Positions 3,362 to 28,133 of a stretch of 64,000 nt of DNA are shown one piece after another (position 1 is the first letter of the stretch; each line of letters begins with the position of its first letter). This DNA is from Phallus indusiatus (lineage: Eukaryota; Basidiomycota; Agaricomycetes; Phallales; Phallaceae). The notes below the pieces were generated by a model. It worked only from the letters and a program-made list of their open reading frames with translations. It ran no database searches and was not told where the DNA came from. The translations under genes were made by a program, and so were the position numbers. The DNA lies in contig JAQFWX010000007.1 of the NCBI GenBank assembly GCA_027605045.1, forward strand, positions 744,001-808,000, given 5' to 3'.

Positions 3362-3430
3362 TGTTAGGGCTACTCAGCTCACACTAGAGGGAGGGGATCC
3401 TAAGAGAATATATTGAGGAAAATACTAACT

Positions 3431-4297
3431 TGTCATGATCCGATTCATGACATCACTTCCGGTAACGTTACGTAATCCATATCCGATCATTTACCGTTTA
3501 TCTCCGTAATCTTATCTCGCTTATGTCACTCACGATATGACCTTCGTGTTCAGTCATCTCAATTTACCTCGCAACTCGAATAGAGACGTACCCGTCTCTC
3601 TTAACTCCTGGAACACCCGCGGAAAGCCCTTTCTAGAATATTCCACGCACGTTCCGGTTATGAGATCATAGATGACGAACGTAGGTCCATGTATGCACAG
3701 CACTTATCCCTGCATGCCTCATGGTCATCACATGAGACATCATACCCTGCATATATTGATATTACTTACGAATCTCACGACTTGTTTGTATTTCTCAAGT
3801 TCGGAATCTATTTCGAACTGAGCTAGAATTATTTATCTGACGTGTATATAAACCCTAGCATACACGTAGATAGTTCTTCAGACTTAATATCGAACGTAGT
3901 TCGATATCTCTATAAAAACTCTCTTTTCTCTACTCTCTTCATCATTGAACGTCGAGATCGTTCCTCGAGACTTGCAGCGACGGAAGCCATCCGTCGTTGC
4001 CGAGAGTTACATCTCAAAGCTTTCTTCATTATCGTTGAGCTTGATATCATTCAATACGAGATACAGCTCGCGACTCTCGAAGCTCGGAACGCACATATCC
4101 GTAACGTCCTTGACGAACTCGACGCTCGTGACGAACGTCAGGACAAATCCTAAAGAAGACTGTCGTGGCACAACCTCTTATAGGTTGAGGCCAAGTCCTG
4201 ACTATCGTCAACCAACGGTGACGGTTAACAGTGTTATATTCAGCGACTAAAGTATATTATAGTATCTATAACCGTTCCCGGATATCGGTACTTGACA
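3431..4297 (+). repeat. 5' LTR of element B
   Basis: 867 bp, TGTCATGATCCG...GGTACTTGACA. Has a TATA box at 3845-3852. A reversed, truncated copy of this LTR is at 17843-18522. Confidence 0.95.
3845..3890 (+). promoter_or_regulatory. TATA box and predicted transcript start / self-primer, element B
   Basis: TATATAAA at 3845-3852 is followed 35 nt later by AGACTTAATAT (3880-3890). This 11-mer is the exact reverse complement of 4300-4310, just after the LTR. In Tf1 the first 11 nt of the RNA prime reverse transcription in this way, so 3880 is the likely start of R. The start site itself is inferred from spacing. Confidence 0.7.
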
Positions 4298-4299
4298 GT

Positions 4300-4310
4300 A
4301 TATTAAGTCT
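4300..4310 (+). promoter_or_regulatory. Self-priming primer binding site, element B
   Basis: ATATTAAGTCT starts 2 nt (GT) after the LTR end and pairs perfectly over exactly 11 nt with AGACTTAATAT in the LTR. No tRNA-type TGG site is present here. Element A shows the same geometry. Confidence 0.7.
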
Positions 4311-4375
4311 CACCCGGCAGCTCTTCTTTTTATCGCACACTCTACGTCTCGGTTATATCTTTTCTTTCTTTCATC

Positions 4376-6339
4376 ATGTCTTCTACTCAACAATCTCACA
4401 CTCGAGTATATGCGCAGCGTTTAACCTCGCTGTCTCCAGCTACTCGCGAATCGGTTATTGAAGATCAACGTCGTGATAGGCAATCCCGGAATGAACGTCG
4501 ACAACTCAATCGAACTGCCCAGCTCAACCAACTCGCAGAAATCGTCAATCCCTCTGTGATAACCTCTCCTCTGCGCAGTTTGATGCCGACTCAGCGTCAA
4601 CGTTCGTTGTCTTACGAACGTGAAATGGGCGCAAGGTCTGGCGCACACGTTCCCGGTATAATTAATTTGCCTTACCCTATCGAATCGTTTGCTACTGATC
4701 TCAATATCCCTACGTACTATGGTCCGACTCGTTCTTCTTCCTTACCTCCCCCTCCTATTCGACCTCGCATCTCAGCGTCTCCTACTCCTACGGTGTTGGC
4801 TACACCTCCTCCTAGCGCCAACCCTGTCCAGAACCCTCCTCCTCCTGTTCGTCGTCAAACTTCTCAGATGCCCAAGATTGAAGAAGTTAAAGACGAAGAA
4901 CCTCCTCGTACTCCTTTGCCGCAAGCATCTGGTTCTGGCGGAAACGGTGGAGACCCTCCAGGTGATGGAGACCCGGACAATCATGACTCTGATGGTCCGC
5001 ATGATGCCTCTGTCCCTGGCATTCCCTCTGCAGGTCCCGGTGGTGGTGGTATTGGTGGTGGTGGTGATGGTGGACCCCCTGGTGGTGGACCTCCTGACGA
5101 CTTTGGAAACGACAACGACGACGAAGATGATTTCATTCCTGATCCGCGTCGTCGCAACACTATCTCCATGGACGAAATACGTGAAGTCTTTCGTAACATC
5201 GCCGCCCTCCTCTCCAGTCAACAGTCGATTCAGACTGCTCAACTCAACGTCTCTCGTTCCCGTGCTACCGTCAAGGAACCAGAAACGTTTGACGGAGCGG
5301 ACCCGGACAAAATTGCTAACTTTTTCACTCAATGTCATCTCGTCTTTCGTGCTCGTCCAGCTGACTTTAGTTTGGACTGGCAACGTATCTTCTATGCCCT
5401 CTCCTTTCTTCGCGGCACTGCTCTTAGTTTCTTTCAACCATTCCTTGAGTCTGGTGATGAAGATCTTCAAGACTACCCGTTCTTTACCAATTGGGAATCT
5501 TTCATCGAAACCCTCACTCAGGCCTTCGGCTCGTTCTCTCCTGAGGATGATGCTGAAAAGGCGTTAATGCGCCTGACGTTTTCCGACAGCATGAAAGCGT
5601 CCAATTTCTTTGTTCAGTTCACTAAGTATGCTACACGCACTAACTTCAACGCCAGTTCTCTCCGTCGGATTTTATGGGAGAAACTGCCTAGACGTCTTGT
5701 CGACCGCATATATAACTCGGATCGCGACACGTCTACTTATGCAGCGTTGAGGATAGCCGTTCAAGAGTTTGACGCACATTATTGGGAATATGAAGGTCGG
5801 AAAAGTCCCAACAGTCGTCATCGTCCTCTTCCGACAATCGTTCCCGTAACAACAATTCGTCGTCGAGCTCCAATTCAAACAACAACCATCGGAACTCACA
5901 AAACAATCGTCCGATACGTGGAAACATTTGGCATGGCACGAACTTTAGAAATTATAGGCCTGATCGGGCTCCCATTCCTAGTCGTTTCGGTAACAATAGT
6001 CGTACGTCTAACAACAATAACAACAACAATAGGAACTCTGGTTCGACTCCCTTGTCTGCTGCCGAACGACAACGTCGTCTTGATCAACAATTGTGCTTTA
6101 TCTGTGGTCAGCGTGGCCATATGTCTCGCGAATGCCCTAGAAACCGTCGAACTAATCCTCCAGCTACGACTGCTGCCAACCAACCTCGTGGTCGTCGAAC
6201 CTTCAACAACGGCGGAGGTCGGAACAGTAACAACACATCTCGAAGTGCACCTCCCGTCGTACGTACTCCTGTGGACTCTAAGTCCCAACCTACAGTCACT
6301 GACTCAGCTCAACCTGGGTCTAGTGCATCCAAGAACTAG
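4376..6339 (+). CDS. gag: Gag of element B, with one internal frame change
   Basis: Starts at ATG 4376 (MSSTQQSHTRVYAQ). The N-terminal third is Pro/Gly/Asp-rich and disordered. A retrotransposon Gag core follows at about residues 300-470 (ETFDGADPDKIANFFTQCH, FFVQFTKYATRTNF). At about 5800 the sensible frame moves by -1: downstream, the Asn/Ser-rich linker and the zinc knuckle CFICGQRGHMSRECP (6091-6135) are read in frame 1, ending at TAG 6337-6339. The change lies in or near CGGAAAAG at 5798-5805. It may be a 1-nt loss or a real -1 shift. Gag builds the particle and binds element RNA. Confidence 0.85.
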
Positions 6340-6413
6340 ATGTTAGTCGGGAAGGTTCAGTACGCGCCAACGTAGCCGTAGTCGGTGGTACTAGTAAAGT
6401 AGTTTTACGGTCT

Positions 6414-9400
6414 ATGCCTGTTTTCTCTGATTCTTTTATGATTTCCCTTTCTGTTCCTTTTTCTCCTTCTCCCTTCAAGTGCATGGTCGACTCGGGATCG
6501 ACGCACTGTTTTATAAATGAAAAAATAGTAGATAAATATGCCCTTCCATTTCAGACCATCGACCCTATTCCTTTATTTCTTATTGATGGGACTACAAACT
6601 CTTTTATCACTCGGAAGATAGTTTTAAATGTAACTTTTCCTAGTAGTGACACTTTATCGATTTCTTTTCTCGTTACGAAGTTGGAAGCTAATTGTGATTT
6701 CGTCTTAGGATACGACTGGCTCACCCGCTATAATCCGTCGATTAACTGGGTATTGGGCAGTATCAAATTCCCAGACAACATACGATTATCTTCTGACAAG
6801 GCCGAATCGTCCTTTTCCGCTACTCAATCAAACACACGAAATGCCTCAGCTATTCCAACCGCCACTTCTCGTCCTTCAGTATCTCTTGTTAACGCCGCAG
6901 CTTTTCTTCACGCAGCCAACTCTTCTGGCTCTGTTGTTTTTCGGTTAGCAGTCACCGATCCAAAAGTCAAGTCTTATTCCGCAGCTGTGGATCCCGACTT
7001 TAACGAGATGTCAATACCTGAAGACTACCGAGAAATTGCAGATGTATTTAGTGGTGTCAAAGCCGACACTCTGGCGCCACATCGATCATACGATTTGAAG
7101 ATTGAACTCGAAGATGGCAAAACTCCTCCTCTAGGACCCATCTATTCTCTTTCACCCCTTGAATTAGAATCTCTCCGAGAATTTATCGATGATAATTTGA
7201 AGACTGGTTTTATTCGCCATTCCAATTCTCCTCATGGCGCTCCAGTCCTTTTTGTCAAAAAGAAAGACGGCTCCTTACGTCTTTGTGTGGATTTTCGCGG
7301 ACTCAACAAAATTAGTAAAAAGGATAAGTATCCGTTACCACTTATCTCGGATTTACTAGACGCTCCTCGAAAAGCCCGCATATATACCAAGATCGATTTG
7401 AAGCACGCATATCACCTTGTGCGTATCGCGGAAGGTGATGAATGGAAGACAGCGTTCAGAACCCGTTATGGATCTTTTGAATGGCTTGTCATGCCATTTG
7501 GATTATCCAACGCTCCCGCTGCTTTCCAACGCTTCATGAACGATATTTTAGGCGACCTACTCGATCATTGCGTCGTCGTTTATCTCGATGATATCCTCAT
7601 TTACTCAGACGACATTTCCTCGCATAAACAACACGTCAAAGAAGTTCTCAAACGTCTCCGGCAACACAACCTATATGCGTCGCCGAAGAAATGCGAATTT
7701 CATAAGGATCGTGTAGAGTTTCTTGGATATGTTTTGGATTCATCTGGACTTGCGATGGATACCGGCAAAGTTAAACAGATTATTGACTGGCCTATTCCGC
7801 GCAAAGTTAAGGATATTCAATCATTTCTTGGATTTGCAAACTTCTATCGTCGTTTTATTGATCAATACTCGCATATAACCATACCTCTCACTCGACTTAC
7901 GCGTAAAGGTGCACCTTGGAACTGGACCGACGATTGCCAACGCGCATTCGACACTTTGAAAAAGTCTTTTACAACTGCACCAGTGCTAGCTCACTGGGTA
8001 CCAGACCGGCCTATTATAGTCGAGACGGACGCGTCTGACTATGCTCTCGCAGCTATATTATCTCAATACGATGCGACAAACGAATTACACCCAATCGCTT
8101 TTCATTCCCGTACATTTACACCTCCAGAACTCAATTACGATGTTCACGACAAAGAATTACTCGCGATATTTGAAGCTTTTCAAAAATGGCGTCATTACCT
8201 TGAAGGATCTACTTTTCCTGTTGACGTCTTCACAGATCACAAAAATCTCACTTATTTCTCTACAACAAAAACACTTACTCGCCGACAAGCGAGATGGTCC
8301 GAATTTTTATCTCAATTTAACCTTAATATTAATTTCCGTCCTGGTCGCTTGGGTACTAAACCTGACTCTCTCACTAGACGATGGGACGTCTACCTTAAAG
8401 AGGGGATAAGCGACTACGCCGACGTTAACCCGCAAAATTTGAAGCCGATTTTCACTTCAGAGCAATTAAAGGTGTCGTTAAATGCTACCATTCTTCACGC
8501 TCCTATTCTCCGTAGCGCTATTATCATGGACATTAACAAGCTTCATGACGACATTCTCACTGCGCTTCCTCATGATCCAGTCGCGCAACTTCATTTACAC
8601 GATCGTTCCAATCCTCGTTGGACTGTGGATGATCGCGGATTCCTTAGATGTGATGGTCGTATCTTCGTTCCGGCAGTTGAAGACCTCAGACTTCGTGTCC
8701 TTCAGTATAAACATGATCATCCCGTATCTGGACATTTCGGACAGACCAAGACCCTTGAACTTATACGTCGCGAATACGTCTGGCCAAACCTTCGTGATAT
8801 GGTTAAAGAGTTTTGTAGCTCTTGTATCGACTGTCCTCGTGGTAAATCACAACGGCATAAACCATACGGATTTCTTAAACAACTTCCCGTACCTATACGT
8901 CCTTGGGATTCGATCTCTATGGACTTTATCGAGCATTTACCTGCTTCCAGTGGTTATACTTCAATTCTTGTCGTTGTTGACCGGCTAACGAAATACGCTA
9001 TTTTCATTCCAACTCACGATACCATTTCATCGCAACAACTTGCCAGCCTCTTTGTTTTACATGTCTTTTCGAAGCATGGTGTCCCATCCCATGTAACGTC
9101 AGACAGAGGCTCAGAGTTTGTCTCTCATTTCTTCCGCTCTTTGGGCAAAGCCCTTAATATGAACCTTCATTTCACTTCTGGATATCACCCCGAAGGTGAT
9201 GGACAAACGGAAAGAACTAATCAAACATTGGAGCAATACATCCGCATATATTGCAACTACCAGCAAGACGATTGGTCCGATTTGCTTCCTCTTGCAGAAT
9301 TTGCATTCAACAACGCAGCTAGTGCTACTACGGGTATATCTCCATTCTTTGCTAACAAAGGATATCACCCTAGCCTCACGATACGCGACAACGTTGAACT

Positions 9401-10010
9401 AACATCTTCTCGAGCAGAGTCGTTTGTCAACAAGCTCGAAGAAATTCACGAAGAACTTAAGGAACAAATCAAACTAGCTCAAAAACGCTATCAAGGACCA
9501 GCAGACGAACGTCGTGCTAAACCACCTCCTTTCAATATAGGGACCAAAGCCTACGTTAAAGCCGAATTCTTCTCGACAACAAGACCCTCTAAAAAGCTCG
9601 CAGCAAAATACTTAGGCCCATTCGAAATCATCGCTAAGCCTAATGACGTTACTAGAACACTTAGATTGCCTAACGATTATCGTTCAGTTCATCCAGTGTT
9701 TCATTTGTCGATGCTCGAGCCGCATACAGAGAATACCATCCCTGGACGTGTTCAAGACCCTCCAGCTCCTGTCGAGATTGAAGGCGACCTCGAATATGAA
9801 ATAGAGTCGATACTTGATTCAAAAATAGATCGACGTCGTGCAGTACCGTTACTGTACTTGGTAAAATGGCTAGGTTATGACGGAACTGATGAAGAGTCTT
9901 CTTGGCTCATCGCTACAGAACTCGAAAATGCTAGCGAACTAGTCGAAGACTTTCACAGAAAATATCCGGATAAACCAGGTCCTAATTGGAATGTCATAAG
10001 CCGTACATAA
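6414..10010 (+). CDS. pol: Pol of element B: PR-RT-RH-IN-chromodomain
   Basis: 1198 aa from ATG 6414; the frame is open from 6324 and overlaps the gag end in the -1 frame, fitting Gag-Pol frameshift expression. Seen in order: aspartic protease DSGSTHCF (about residue 26); reverse transcriptase with YLDDILIYSDD (about 390); RNase H starting VETDASDYALAAILS (about 537); integrase zinc finger H...H...CSSCIDC (about 767-807); integrase core D (SMDFIEHLP), D (SDRGSEF), E (GQTERTNQTLEQ); C-terminal chromodomain (about 1127-1190, YLVKWLGYDGTDEESSW). Chromodomains guide chromovirus integration to marked chromatin. All catalytic motifs are intact, so Pol looks functional. Confidence 0.95.
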   Translation: MPVFSDSFMISLSVPFSPSPFKCMVDSGSTHCFINEKIVDKYALPFQTIDPIPLFLIDGTTNSFITRKIVLNVTFPSSDTLSISFLVTKLEANCDFVLGYDWLTRYNPSINWVLGSIKFPDNIRLSSDKAESSFSATQSNTRNASAIPTATSRPSVSLVNAAAFLHAANSSGSVVFRLAVTDPKVKSYSAAVDPDFNEMSIPEDYREIADVFSGVKADTLAPHRSYDLKIELEDGKTPPLGPIYSLSPLELESLREFIDDNLKTGFIRHSNSPHGAPVLFVKKKDGSLRLCVDFRGLNKISKKDKYPLPLISDLLDAPRKARIYTKIDLKHAYHLVRIAEGDEWKTAFRTRYGSFEWLVMPFGLSNAPAAFQRFMNDILGDLLDHCVVVYLDDILIYSDDISSHKQHVKEVLKRLRQHNLYASPKKCEFHKDRVEFLGYVLDSSGLAMDTGKVKQIIDWPIPRKVKDIQSFLGFANFYRRFIDQYSHITIPLTRLTRKGAPWNWTDDCQRAFDTLKKSFTTAPVLAHWVPDRPIIVETDASDYALAAILSQYDATNELHPIAFHSRTFTPPELNYDVHDKELLAIFEAFQKWRHYLEGSTFPVDVFTDHKNLTYFSTTKTLTRRQARWSEFLSQFNLNINFRPGRLGTKPDSLTRRWDVYLKEGISDYADVNPQNLKPIFTSEQLKVSLNATILHAPILRSAIIMDINKLHDDILTALPHDPVAQLHLHDRSNPRWTVDDRGFLRCDGRIFVPAVEDLRLRVLQYKHDHPVSGHFGQTKTLELIRREYVWPNLRDMVKEFCSSCIDCPRGKSQRHKPYGFLKQLPVPIRPWDSISMDFIEHLPASSGYTSILVVVDRLTKYAIFIPTHDTISSQQLASLFVLHVFSKHGVPSHVTSDRGSEFVSHFFRSLGKALNMNLHFTSGYHPEGDGQTERTNQTLEQYIRIYCNYQQDDWSDLLPLAEFAFNNAASATTGISPFFANKGYHPSLTIRDNVELTSSRAESFVNKLEEIHEELKEQIKLAQKRYQGPADERRAKPPPFNIGTKAYVKAEFFSTTRPSKKLAAKYLGPFEIIAKPNDVTRTLRLPNDYRSVHPVFHLSMLEPHTENTIPGRVQDPPAPVEIEGDLEYEIESILDSKIDRRRAVPLLYLVKWLGYDGTDEESSWLIATELENASELVEDFHRKYPDKPGPNWNVISRT

Positions 10011-10289
10011 TTGGTATGATACGTTATGGTATTGATTGTTTGCTCTCCAACGCTCGTTCTTTCACCGTTTTCATGATTTTAACTTCGTTTCTTTTCTTTC
10101 TCCCTCTTTCTCCCACGGAATATCTTTCCTTCATTATTTCTCACATTTTCCGTTACTTCGCATCAAAATTAAAAAGAAAACAAAAACTACATTATATTGT
10201 TACAGCCTTTTTTGGCTAAGTTCTTACGGTCATTTGATACACAAAAACTACTAGCTAGATTTGTCCATTTCTACTCTACTTTTGTCCGT

Positions 10290-11693
10290 TCATACTAGCG
10301 GACCTTCTTCCTCCCCCTCTTCTCCTTCGTCTCCGGAATCTTCCTTATCATCTTCCCCATCCTCTGCCCTTGCCTTACCCTTGCCCTTGTCAACGCTGGA
10401 TGCACCAGTGTTGACCCCTTCCGTACGCGCTGCTGCCTCCGCTTCTGCCCTCTCAAAAACGCGTTGGGCCGCTCTGATTTTCTCTTCCCTCAACCGCTCC
10501 TCTCTGTCCATAGCCTCGTGCTGTTGCCCTAAAGACAACAGCCTGGCGTCCCTCTCTACCGAAGGGGTGCCCCTGTAAATCGTTGGCGACTGGTATCGGG
10601 GTTGTGGTGTCGCCTGTCGAGAAGGCATATTCCTGGCTATAGTTGCGACCTCGAACGCCAAAGACGCCAAACCCTCGCGTTGGTCGCGCCCCGCGCGTTC
10701 GATCGCGTTGGCCACCAGAGTGAAGCCCGCCAGGATGGCTTGGGCAATCGGGCCTTCATCCTCGTCGCCGGAATCGTCCACTGTAGCCTTTGACGACGTC
10801 TTCCGCGCCTTGGATTTGTAAACCCGTTTGGGCTTGGGTTGGGTCGTCTGCTCCTTCTTCCTCTGCTCAGCCTTCGCCGCTTTTCGGATAACATTGTCGG
10901 GACAGGAGGTCTTGCCTTTCTTGCATTCGTAACAAACGGGGTCTTCTAGCGCGATCCCGACTTGATTGTGACAGGCCTTCTCCTTCCGAAAACAAGAATC
11001 GCACGGAGGGTGCCGTTCAGCACCCATTTTCGACGAAGCGGCGGCGGCGCTGTTTTGAGAAATCGAGGAAGGGCCCGACGTTTTTGTCTTTTTGGAAGGA
11101 GGCGGGAGCTCCTGGATATCGTCCTCATCGGAATCGTCGCCGTTCTCGTCGTCAGAAGGTTCCCGCGGACGTTTGGACGACGCTAGGGCCGATTTACCAA
11201 CGGACGAAACTGACTATTGACAGTCAGATCACGAGAAATCAAAAACCTAAAAAATACTCACCTTTGCTTTCTCAGGATTTTCCGCCCTGTATTTCTTCAT
11301 CATCTCAGCGCGAACGCGCTCTATTTCCCTCTGTTTTTCTTCCTCCTTTCTCTTCTTTTCCTCTTCCCTTCTCTTTTCCTCCTCCTCTCTCTTTCGCCTC
11401 TCCTCAGCCTCACGCGCCCGCCGCTCCTCCTCTTCTTTTTGTTTCCTTAGTTTTTCGGCCGCCAACGCAAGATATCTTGCCTCGTAATCCTTCTCGTATT
11501 TCGATTGGAATAGTTCCACGTAGTCGCGGTCGTCGTCAGCGTGGACTGGTCGAAACGTCGCCTGAACTTCGTCTTGATCAGGCAGAAGGAACAGACGCCC
11601 ATTTGCAAGGGCCCAGTCGACTCGTTGTTCTGGCGTTAAAGAAACGCCCTTGAGGATGTTAGCATCGGTGATAAAGTGGCGGGAGGACGACAT
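10290..11693 (-). CDS. Antisense Zn2Cys6 coiled-coil protein carried inside element B, 451 aa
   Basis: Two exons on the strand opposite to gag-pol: 11693-11262 (144 codons) and 11213-10290 (308 codons with stop). They are joined by a 48-nt phase-0 intron with donor GTGAGT, branch CTGAC and acceptor AATAG. The joined frame has no stop. Residues 1-75 are MSSSRHFITDANILKGVSLT... Residues about 78-140 form a very charged Glu/Lys/Arg coiled coil. Residues 215-248 are C-x2-C-x6-C-x12-C-x2-C-x6-C, the exact spacing of a fungal Zn(II)2Cys6 cluster (CDSCFRKEKAC first half, CYECKKGKTSC second half). A Lys-rich stretch, a second coiled coil (about 390-425) and an acidic tail follow. It converges with pol. 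It could be a nuclear DNA-binding regulator or a chaperone-like accessory factor. Function is inference. Confidence 0.8.
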
Positions 11694-11879
11694 GGATAGA
11701 ATATAGACAAAAGTCGTTAAAGAAAAGAGGTTTATGCTGGGTTGTGGTCAAAAGGAAAGAAGACCGCACTTTTTTCACCAAGTGCGTTTCAGGTTGACAC
11801 GATATGTCACAGTCACTTGTGACCGATAACTCGCGTCTCGCGTAACGCGTCACTTATCTAAATTTATCACGCGTCAACA

Positions 11880-11925
11880 CACGTGATCACAATATTTTTA
11901 TCCGTCACGTGTTTACACTCACGTG
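11880..11925. promoter_or_regulatory. Three CACGTG boxes upstream of the antisense gene
   Basis: CACGTG occurs at 11880-11885, 11906-11911 and 11920-11925, about 190-230 bp upstream of the antisense ATG and just before the 3' LTR. CACGTG is the classic bHLH (Pho4/Cbf1-type) site. A promoter role is inferred from position only. Confidence 0.4.
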
Positions 11926-11975
11926 ACCACTCGTTTAAACTCGGATATACGTAATGGACTCGGGGGCTCGTCCCT

Positions 11976-11988
11976 AAAGAGGGGATAC
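11976..11988 (+). promoter_or_regulatory. Polypurine tract, element B
   Basis: AAAGAGGGGATAC directly before the 3' LTR; the usual plus-strand primer position. Confidence 0.75.
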
Positions 11989-12853
11989 TGTCATGATCCG
12001 ATTCATGACATCACTTCCGGTAACGTTACGTAATCCATATCCGATCATTTACCGTTTATCTCCGTAATCTTATCTCGCTTATGTCACTCACGATATGACC
12101 TTCGCGTTCAGTCATCTCAATTTACCTCGCAACTCGAATAGAGACGTACCCGTCTCTCTTAACTCCTGGAACACCCGCGGAAAGCCCTTTCTAGAATATT
12201 CCACGCACGTTCCGGTTATGAGATCATAGATGACGAACGTAGGTCCATGTATGCACAGCACTTATCCCTGCATGCCTCATGGTCATCACATGAGACATCA
12301 TACCCTGCATATATTGATATTACTTACGAATCTCACGACTTGTTTGTATTTCTCAAGTTCGGAATCTATTTCGAACTGAGCTAGAATTATTTATCTGACG
12401 TGTATATAAACCCTAGCATACACGTAGATAGTTCTTCAGACTTAATATCGAACGTAGTTCGATATCTCTATAAAAACTCTCTTTTCTCTACTCTCTTCAT
12501 CATTGAACGTCGAGATCGTTCCGAGACTTGCAGCGACGGAAGCCATCCGTCGTTGCCGAGAGTTACATCTCAAAGCTTTCTTCATTATCGTTGAGCTTGA
12601 TATCATTCAATACGAGATACAGCTCGCGACTCTCGAAGCTCGGAACGCACATATCCGTAACGTCCTTGACGAACTCGACGCTCGTGACGAACGTCAGGAC
12701 AAATCCTAAAGAAGACTGTCGTGGCACAACCTCTTATAGGTTGAGGCCAAGTCCTGACTATCGTCAACCAACGGTGACGGTTAACAGTGTTATATTCAGC
12801 GACTAAAGTATATTATAGTATCTATAACCGTTCCCGGATATCGGTACTTGACA
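11989..12853 (+). repeat. 3' LTR of element B
   Basis: 865 bp, nearly identical to 3431-4297. The visible differences are a T/C change near 12103 and loss of two bases near 12520. Confidence 0.95.
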
Positions 12854-13190
12854 TAACTACTCACCTAGAGGGAGGGGATCCTAAGAGAACAAGCTTAGGG
12901 ACCCTCACTCTAGGGACAGCGACTATATACATGAAAAACGATAACGCGGCGTGCGGCCCTGACACAGCTAAGTGCTAGGCGCCCGAACCGAGCCTAAGCG
13001 ACGTGATGTCACGGGCATCACACCAGGTACGAGCGTGCAACGCGCGCGAGTAGAGAAAGTGAAATAGAGACAGAACAAACAAACGGAAGGTGGAAGTGAT
13101 GGACGGGAAATGTAAATGGAATAGAAATAAACATATGTCGACGATAATAAATAAGGAAAAATGAAGGGACGCGGTAGCGTACCCTGACAA

Positions 13191-21289: not shown

Positions 21290-21417
21290 CTCTACCTCAA
21301 GACTATCAGTAGCAGCTAGCTCAAGTCTTACAACAGCAGCAGCAAGCTATGTCTCACCCTCAATAACAAGACCTTTGTTGCTAGACTAGGTTCCCTCTAA
21401 ACAGCTCTCTTATTTGC

Positions 21418-21764
21418 TGTCAGGGTACGCTACCGCGCCCCCTCATTTTTCCTCATTTGTTATCATCGGTATATATTTCCCTCTACTTTAATTATATTTC
21501 CCATATATTATCTCCACCCTCCGTTTGCTCCCTCTGTCTCTATGCCACTTTCTCTACTCGCGCGCGTTGCGCGCTCGTACCCAGCGTGACGCCTACAGCG
21601 TCACGTCGCTTATGTTCGGTTTGGGCGTCTGGCACTTAGCTGTGTCAGGGCCGCACGCCGCGCTATCGTTTTTCATGTATATAGTCGCAGTCCCTAGAGT
21701 GAGGGTCCCTAAGCTTGTTCTCTTAGGATCCCCTCCCTCTAGTGTGAGCTGAGTAGCCCTAACA
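21418..21764 (+). repeat. 5' LTR of element A
   Basis: 347 bp, TGTCAGGGTACG...GCCCTAACA. Contains TATATAG and the self-primer 11-mer. Confidence 0.95.
21678..21721 (+). promoter_or_regulatory. TATA box and predicted transcript start / self-primer, element A
   Basis: TATATAG at 21678-21684, then 33 nt from its start AAGCTTGTTCT (21711-21721). This 11-mer is the exact reverse complement of 21767-21777. The predicted R/U5 is only about 54 nt. Confidence 0.7.
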
Positions 21765-27774: not shown

Positions 27775-27786
27775 AGGGGGGGGTGG
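27774..27786 (+). promoter_or_regulatory. Polypurine tract, element A
   Basis: AAGGGGGGGGTGG-type purine run directly before the 3' LTR. Confidence 0.7.
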
Positions 27787-28133
27787 TGTCAGGGTACGCT
27801 ACCGCGCCCCCTCATTTTTCCTCATTTGTTATCATCGGTATATATTTCCCTCTACTTTAATTATATTTCCCATATATTATCTCCACCCTCCGTTTGCTCC
27901 CTCTGTCTCTATGCCACTTTCTCTACTCGCGCGCGTTGCGCGCTCGTACCCAGCGTGACGCCTACAGCGTCACGTCGCTTATGTTCAGTTTGGGCGTCTG
28001 GCACTTAGCTGTGTCAGGGCCGCACGCCGCGCTATCGTTTTTCATGTATATAGTCGCAGTCCCTAGAGTGAGGGTCCCTAAGCTTGTTCTCTTAGGATCC
28101 CCTCCCTCTAGTGTGAGCTGAGTAGCCCTAACA
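27787..28133 (+). repeat. 3' LTR of element A
   Basis: 347 bp; a single substitution from the 5' LTR was seen. Confidence 0.95.

Follow-up and report, generated by a model that had tools for sequence, protein, structure and literature searches.

In the fungus Phallus indusiatus, a Ty3 retrotransposon, here called element B, carries an intron-containing antisense gene whose divergence between copies greatly exceeds that of the remaining element, and the same contrast was observed in three Ty3 families of this genome. The best explanation, to which I give a probability of roughly 0.6, is that the gene encodes a nuclear DNA-binding regulator of element transcription or silencing that is selected for variety. 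A first-pass annotation had described the gene in the window (the whole stretch of 64,000 nucleotides that was analysed, C173:744001-808000). The hypervariability and the presence of the gene in sister families go beyond that annotation, and the hypervariability is the strongest feature of the locus.

The antisense gene and its host element

The features of the locus, in window coordinates, are as follows.

3426-3430 and 12854-12858: TSD of element B, 5 bp, TAACT on both sides
3431..12853, plus strand: element B, a Ty3 chromodomain LTR retrotransposon carrying the antisense gene
3431..4297, plus strand: 5′ LTR of element B
4376..6346, plus strand: gag-like ORF, 656 aa
6414..10010, plus strand: pol, 1198 aa, with protease, RT, RNase H, integrase and chromodomain
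11693-10290, minus strand: antisense gene, two exons, between pol and the 3′ LTR of element B
11262..11693, minus strand: exon 1, 432 nt, 144 aa, with an N-terminal module (RVDWALANGR...YEKDY) and a K/E-rich coil
11214..11261, minus strand: intron, 48 nt, phase 0, GTGAGT...CTGAC...TAG
10290..11213, minus strand: exon 2, 924 nt including the stop codon, with NLS-like basic runs, a Zn2Cys6-like domain, two predicted long helices and an acidic tail
10902..11003, minus strand: zinc-cluster-like motif, C-x2-C-x6-C-x12-C-x2-C-x6-C
11694..11988, minus strand: stretch from the ATG to the 3′ LTR, 295 nt, with three CACGTG; candidate antisense promoter
11989..12853, plus strand: 3′ LTR of element B
about 21415-21742 and 27784-28111: LTRs of element A

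Element B reads as a recently inserted Ty3 chromovirus. Its two LTRs differ at one of 865 compared sites, plus two gap columns, and its pol matches RVP_2, RVT_1, RT_RNaseH, Integrase_H2C2, rve, SH3_Tf2-1 and Chromo above the Pfam cut-offs. The gag-like ORF matches DUF4939, Ty3_capsid and Retrotrans_gag, all below the cut-off. The length of this ORF is off by one base relative to six of the nine other copies in which the whole stretch was matched, and its C-terminal reading is unusual. The gag may therefore be frameshifted in the window copy, though pol and the antisense gene are open. A short repeat flanks element B (3362-3430 and 12854-13189). Since the 3′ part of this repeat matches the LTR of element A (21415-21742) at about 86% in inverted orientation, element B probably landed in a solo LTR of element A's family. 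Pieces of the same repeat were also seen in or beside the B copies L009, L015, L017, L018, L019 and L020. In element A, just 9 nt separate the last pol ORF from the 3′ LTR, which leaves no gene there, as the first-pass annotation had stated.

The two-exon structure antisense to the element, the phase-0 join and the 451-aa product with its six-cysteine spacing (motif CDSCFRKEKACHNQVGIALEDPVCYECKKGKTSC) were all recovered as that annotation had given them. Among introns of 40-79 nt with the GT inside the first 700 nt, the 48-nt intron is the sole in-phase GT..AG choice that yields more than 400 aa. An intron in this orientation would survive retrotransposition because the genomic element RNA is the other strand. 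Two coiled coils and an acidic tail had been claimed as well; the K/E-rich stretch of exon 1 and the acidic tail were read from the sequence, while after the motif, where the second coil had been placed, two long helices were predicted (exon 2 residues 154-195 and 219-266). Upstream of the antisense ATG lie three CACGTG sites (11880, 11906 and 11920), which make the 295-nt stretch a candidate promoter. All 11 B copies counted (the window and 10 others, with L013 and L019 left out) have three CACGTG there, and the divergence of the stretch declines towards the LTR. A sense ORF overlapping the gene (11084-11653) was rejected as a conserved gene; it is open in four of 11 copies (the window, L012, L015 and L018) and has one to four stop codons in the other seven.

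Zn2Cys6 motifs have the spacing C-x2-C-x6-C-x(5-12)-C-x2-C-x(6-8)-C, and the cysteine spacing of PF00172 is found in the antisense product. The middle spacing is x9, x11 or x12 in element copies and x13 in two stand-alone genes, L021 and L022. Over 13 diverse sequences, only the six cysteines and one glutamine are invariant, and likewise in two alignments of 19 sequences. None of the eight gene proteins scanned reached the gathering cut-off of Pfam Zn_clus; five gave matches below it (E 0.39-4.6), and the window's own 451-aa protein gave no Zn_clus match. With the modelled domain, whose model is of middling confidence (pLDDT 61.7), five of six Foldseek matches were Zn2Cys6 proteins, at weak E-values (best 0.5); the weak fold matches comprise the Pho7, Gal4, Ppr1, Hap1, Leu3 and Put3 domains. 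Judged from the invariant cysteines and the fold comparison, though not from the Pfam cut-off, the product is a probable zinc-cluster DNA-binding protein, and the Zn2Cys6 assignment of the first-pass annotation is backed to that extent. In spacing and in weak fold matches it resembles the fungal Zn(II)2Cys6 TFs (PF00172). It differs from them in lying below the Pfam cut-off, in being encoded by a retrotransposon and in its Pfam matches, among which there is no fungal TF regulatory domain. The Pfam search of the 451-aa protein up to E 1 gave no match to Transposase_28 (PF04195) or bZIP, and querying the PDB with the sequence of the zinc stretch by itself returned nothing relevant.

Copies, selection and sister families

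Is the gene a stable part of the element, as had been suggested? The own genome (67.2 Mb, 206 contigs) was searched by DNA, and at least 15 matches at no fewer than 13 places were found. Behind full-length pol-end matches at 97% identity or more, the gene is present in 12 of 12 cases (these counts are lower bounds), and of three matches that cover the pol end in part, at 98% identity or more, only the one at C173:1897445 has it. The six-cysteine motif occurs in all 13 copies found (the window and L009-L020). Eleven copies entered the spliced alignment, L019 and L020 being left out for replaced or inserted sequence, and nine of them have an intact spliced frame; L009 and L013 are frameshifted. 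The intron measures 48 nt in four copies, 49 nt in one, 50 nt in two and 51 nt in four. In the nine intact copies, exon phase 0 is kept although the intron length changes modulo 3, an indirect sign of splicing.

Over the 36 pairs of intact copies, dN/dS (NG86, own script) is 0.12-0.29, with dS 0.205-1.70 and dN 0.027-0.31, and the differences at codon positions 1, 2 and 3 are 18.8%, 16.3% and 41.3%. In the nine intact copies, both exons are free of internal stops when read in the gene frame. Each of the other five frames is interrupted at least once per exon, the exception being a single sense frame of exon 1, in L011 and L018. By its sequence, the minus-strand ORF is protein-coding, and it looks maintained by purifying selection. 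The first-pass annotation had named the frame and the six cysteines in other copies as the thing to look at, and both the check and the stable association bear it out.

These data bear on two other readings. It is very improbable that the antisense transcript itself matters, as dsRNA or siRNA, with the frame incidental. PMC7264820 does consider that antisense transcription of LTR elements might act through dsRNA, but dsRNA would not need a frame, an intron phase and cysteines that are kept despite strongly diverged synonymous sites, and the dN/dS range disfavours such a role. It is just as hard to credit that the gene is a passenger, taken from the host in a single chance event and slowly decaying. 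Stand-alone relatives of similar architecture, described below, would fit such a capture, yet the gene occurs in three families and behind every full-length pol-end match of the element B family, and a dN/dS well under 1 indicates purifying selection rather than decay.

A second group of pol ends, at 70-71% identity, was found at nine places in the genome. In all nine sister copies fetched (L027-L035), an antisense six-cysteine motif lies downstream of pol, with a middle spacing of x9 in seven (C type) and x11 in two (D type); L054 is an additional D-type copy, and C130:206619 is listed as an additional C-type copy. Spliced frames are intact in five of the nine, namely L027, L028 and L033 with a 51-nt intron and L032 and L035 with a 46-nt intron, and in the remaining four the gene is truncated or interrupted. 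L029, L030 and L031 are nearly identical and share an early end of exon 2. Thus, a version without the full C-terminus has spread, and an element does not require the C-terminus in cis to do so, a point against the explanation preferred here. Between L027 and the window, the pol proteins are 74% identical (residues 99-1192), as against 22-23% for the exon 2 proteins. Two sister Ty3 families therefore bear the same architecture at the same place, and, as far as sequences tell, one clade of fungal Ty3 chromoviruses has this as a genuine accessory gene.

A hypervariable island of mosaic variants

In the 21 pairs of B copies with both genes readable, dS is 0.047-0.095 for pol and 0.205-1.425 for the antisense gene. 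The divergence was profiled per 100 nt for six copies against the window (rows to 12750; L013 and L014 are nearly the same). It averages 0-5% through gag and pol, rises directly after the pol stop codon (10010), averages 8-36% inside the gene and is back to 2-8% before the LTR, parts of which reach 7-9%; the flanks of the island are gradual. A similar peak over the gene was found in the two sister families. In the C family, divergence is 0-2% at the pol end, up to 33% in the gene and 0-4% downstream of it; the corresponding values in the D family are 2.4%, 13-18% and 0-3%. For exon 2 against the pol end, dS is 0.51-0.72 versus 0.016-0.023 in three C pairs and 0.42 versus 0.085 in one D pair.

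The own LTR pairs of six B copies measured have zero or one differing site (in four of the copies, part of the LTR was compared), and the 3′ LTRs of other B copies differ from that of the window by about 3-5%, L009 excepted. Since the own LTRs are nearly identical, the divergent gene versions sit in recent insertions and would already have been present in the donor elements instead of arising after insertion. The variants are not uniformly divergent along their length. Between L014 and L018 the difference is 39% in the N module and 9% in the C module, and between the window copy and L011 it is 35% and 7%; L014 and L011 differ by 38% in the N module, 6% in the Zn module and 25% in the C module. 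Incompatibility between neighbouring informative sites is lower than after shuffling (none of 1000 shuffles was as low). The plain reading of these sequences is recombination between copies, the gene variants being mosaics of modules. Distances in pol and in the gene correlate (Mantel r 0.72, p 0.004, 7 copies), which indicates that the exchange is incomplete and that part of the gene divergence follows the element's own history.

The contrast in dS suggests diversifying selection on the gene, although a sweep of the backbone through recombination could give the same contrast. In that case, a successful backbone of gag, pol and LTRs would recently have spread by template switching onto the gene versions of old, divergent lineages, and the diversity would call for no special selection. 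Such switching is usual in LTR elements, the gene shows evident recombination, and the six copies measured are recent insertions. However, the peak covers the same gene in each of three families, and their pol ends differ by 20-30% at the DNA level, so three sweeps would be needed, and the gene is still under purifying selection. I consider this account of the diversity doubtful, though worth weighing against selection for variety.

If the protein acted on its own element, gene variants and LTR variants might be expected to change together. LTR segments were compared with the gene modules in eight copies, and one of 12 segments (12694-12794) co-varied with the Zn module (r 0.71, uncorrected for 48 tests). 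A self-specific operator in the LTR was rejected as a candidate for lack of a convincing co-varying segment among the 12. Thus, the simplest self-operator model is weakened, while host targets or protein partners remain. The result fits targets outside the element, and with them a protein directed mainly at the host or at integration, as a tether for the integration complex or a factor at host promoters, its variants corresponding to target niches. A Zn2Cys6-like domain with NLS-like runs and the related stand-alone genes in the host genome are in keeping with such a role. On the other hand, a chromodomain is a targeting module in fungal Ty3 elements, and pol already has one. I regard a mainly host-directed or integration-directed protein as unlikely, and prefer a regulator of the element itself.

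Relatives, known systems and proposed function

Related genes also exist outside the element. The stand-alone loci L021-L026 have the zinc motif and a related N module with no pol of the element B type within 10 kb; at L051, L052 and L053, which have the same motif and a related module, such a pol is absent within 5 kb. L021/L022, L024/L025 and L052/L053 are duplicates. L024 and L025 are 99.9% identical over 8.5 kb, spanning the zinc gene and part of an ORF for a DUF6535 protein (L024:7301-9871, minus strand). Weak matches were also seen at C45:434203 and C125:383090 of the same genome. In a midpoint-rooted tree of 22 sequences, the C type groups with L051 (support 96) and the B type with L021/L022, apart from the rest (support 70). 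Element genes and stand-alone genes thus interleave, which would fit either repeated escape into host loci or repeated capture, and the stand-alone genes could have been domesticated from element copies or could represent the source family. Because place, strand and intron phase are shared by three families, I favour the view that the gene is old in the element and escaped from it later.

No homologue of the 451-aa protein (7988 candidates sharing most words scored) or of its residues 205-350 (347 candidates) was found among 5.8 billion proteins, in a search that needs shared 5-residue words and in which other splice models alter the protein length, so that absence elsewhere is not implied. 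The pol had 7869 matches in the same protein set, and the fungal-named relatives among the 120 matches listed are Agaricomycetes (Pisolithus, Leucocoprinus, Trametes and Lentinula). A pol-alignment scan of viral contigs confirmed none of 80 stretches. Genome contigs gave 15 pol loci (best segments 33-59% identity), none with the zinc motif in six frames; at least six of these loci stop where the pol match does, or close to it. Chromovirus-like pol was seen in bacterial MAG records (L036-L050, for example in Trichormus and Synechococcales bins), probably as eukaryotic contamination.

The element B gene is an antisense ORF between pol and the 3′ LTR, occurs in most copies of its family and shows coding conservation, as expected of an aORF-3R. 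Plant examples are gene23 of Grande, RIRE2, Retand with TRP28, and PvRetro13 (PMC7264820, PMC11963269). According to these papers, they have the same place and orientation in most copies, some are nuclear or predicted to bind DNA, a regulatory role is suspected, and the function of antisense accessory genes in LTR retrotransposons is described as unknown. In contrast to them, the present gene is fungal, has a zinc-cluster-like domain and a conserved intron, and matches neither TRP28 nor any other Pfam family above cut-off. It is also far more diverged than pol, whereas the conservation of plant aORF-3R genes is described as similar to that of other element proteins (PMC7264820).

The first-pass annotation knew of no Zn2Cys6 gene of this kind in fungi. 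An antisense gene in a fungal Ty3 element is in fact on record, since Boty of Botrytis and Sclerotinia carries the extra antisense gene brtn between pol and the 3′ LTR (Zhao 2011, as cited in PMC7264820 and PMC8365987); its hosts are ascomycetes, and the comparison is by description only. The word antisense is absent from the main text of a survey of fungal LTR elements (PMC3248453). No zinc-cluster or hypervariable antisense retrotransposon gene was found described in the titles and abstract starts of the open-licence literature. What appears new is therefore a Zn2Cys6-like antisense gene with a hypervariable island, antisense accessory genes as such being known from plants and Boty.

Two systems outside this group suggest how the protein may be used. 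HBZ of HTLV-1 is described as a regulator encoded on the minus strand of a retroelement, with an antisense transcript that starts in the 3′ LTR; it is a bZIP protein, and the likeness is one of working, with no sequence relation claimed. VANDALs are DNA transposons. The VANC protein of Arabidopsis VANDAL elements is reported as a sequence-specific anti-silencing protein encoded by the element and diversified between related elements (PMC5735166). Its targets vary between related elements as tandem repeats (PMC5735166), unlike element B with its lack of clear LTR co-variation.

For the preferred regulator of element transcription or silencing, I propose the following course. The minus strand would be transcribed from a promoter between the ATG and the 3′ LTR, and the host spliceosome would remove the short intron. 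The protein would enter the nucleus and bind DNA as Zn2Cys6 factors do, its helices probably making it a dimer, and would regulate the transcription or silencing of the element in the manner of HBZ or VANC. The divergent, recombining variants in recent insertions would then reflect selection for new specificities, most simply as a way for the element to evade repression imposed by the host or by copies already resident. More tentatively, and as a possibility I would sooner doubt than accept, the gene may be a polymorphic specificity locus in which recent insertions with a near-uniform gag-pol bear old, module-shuffled alleles, kept diverse by negative frequency-dependent selection through such evasion, with the gene family passing between the element and stand-alone host genes.

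The finding ties an antisense accessory gene to a probable DNA-binding fold, with many divergent variants in one genome and in sharp contrast to the backbone. Since the variants sit on a nearly constant element, their function can be tested by comparing them. Retrotransposons may thus possess, as viruses and self-recognition loci do, a gene under selection to differ.
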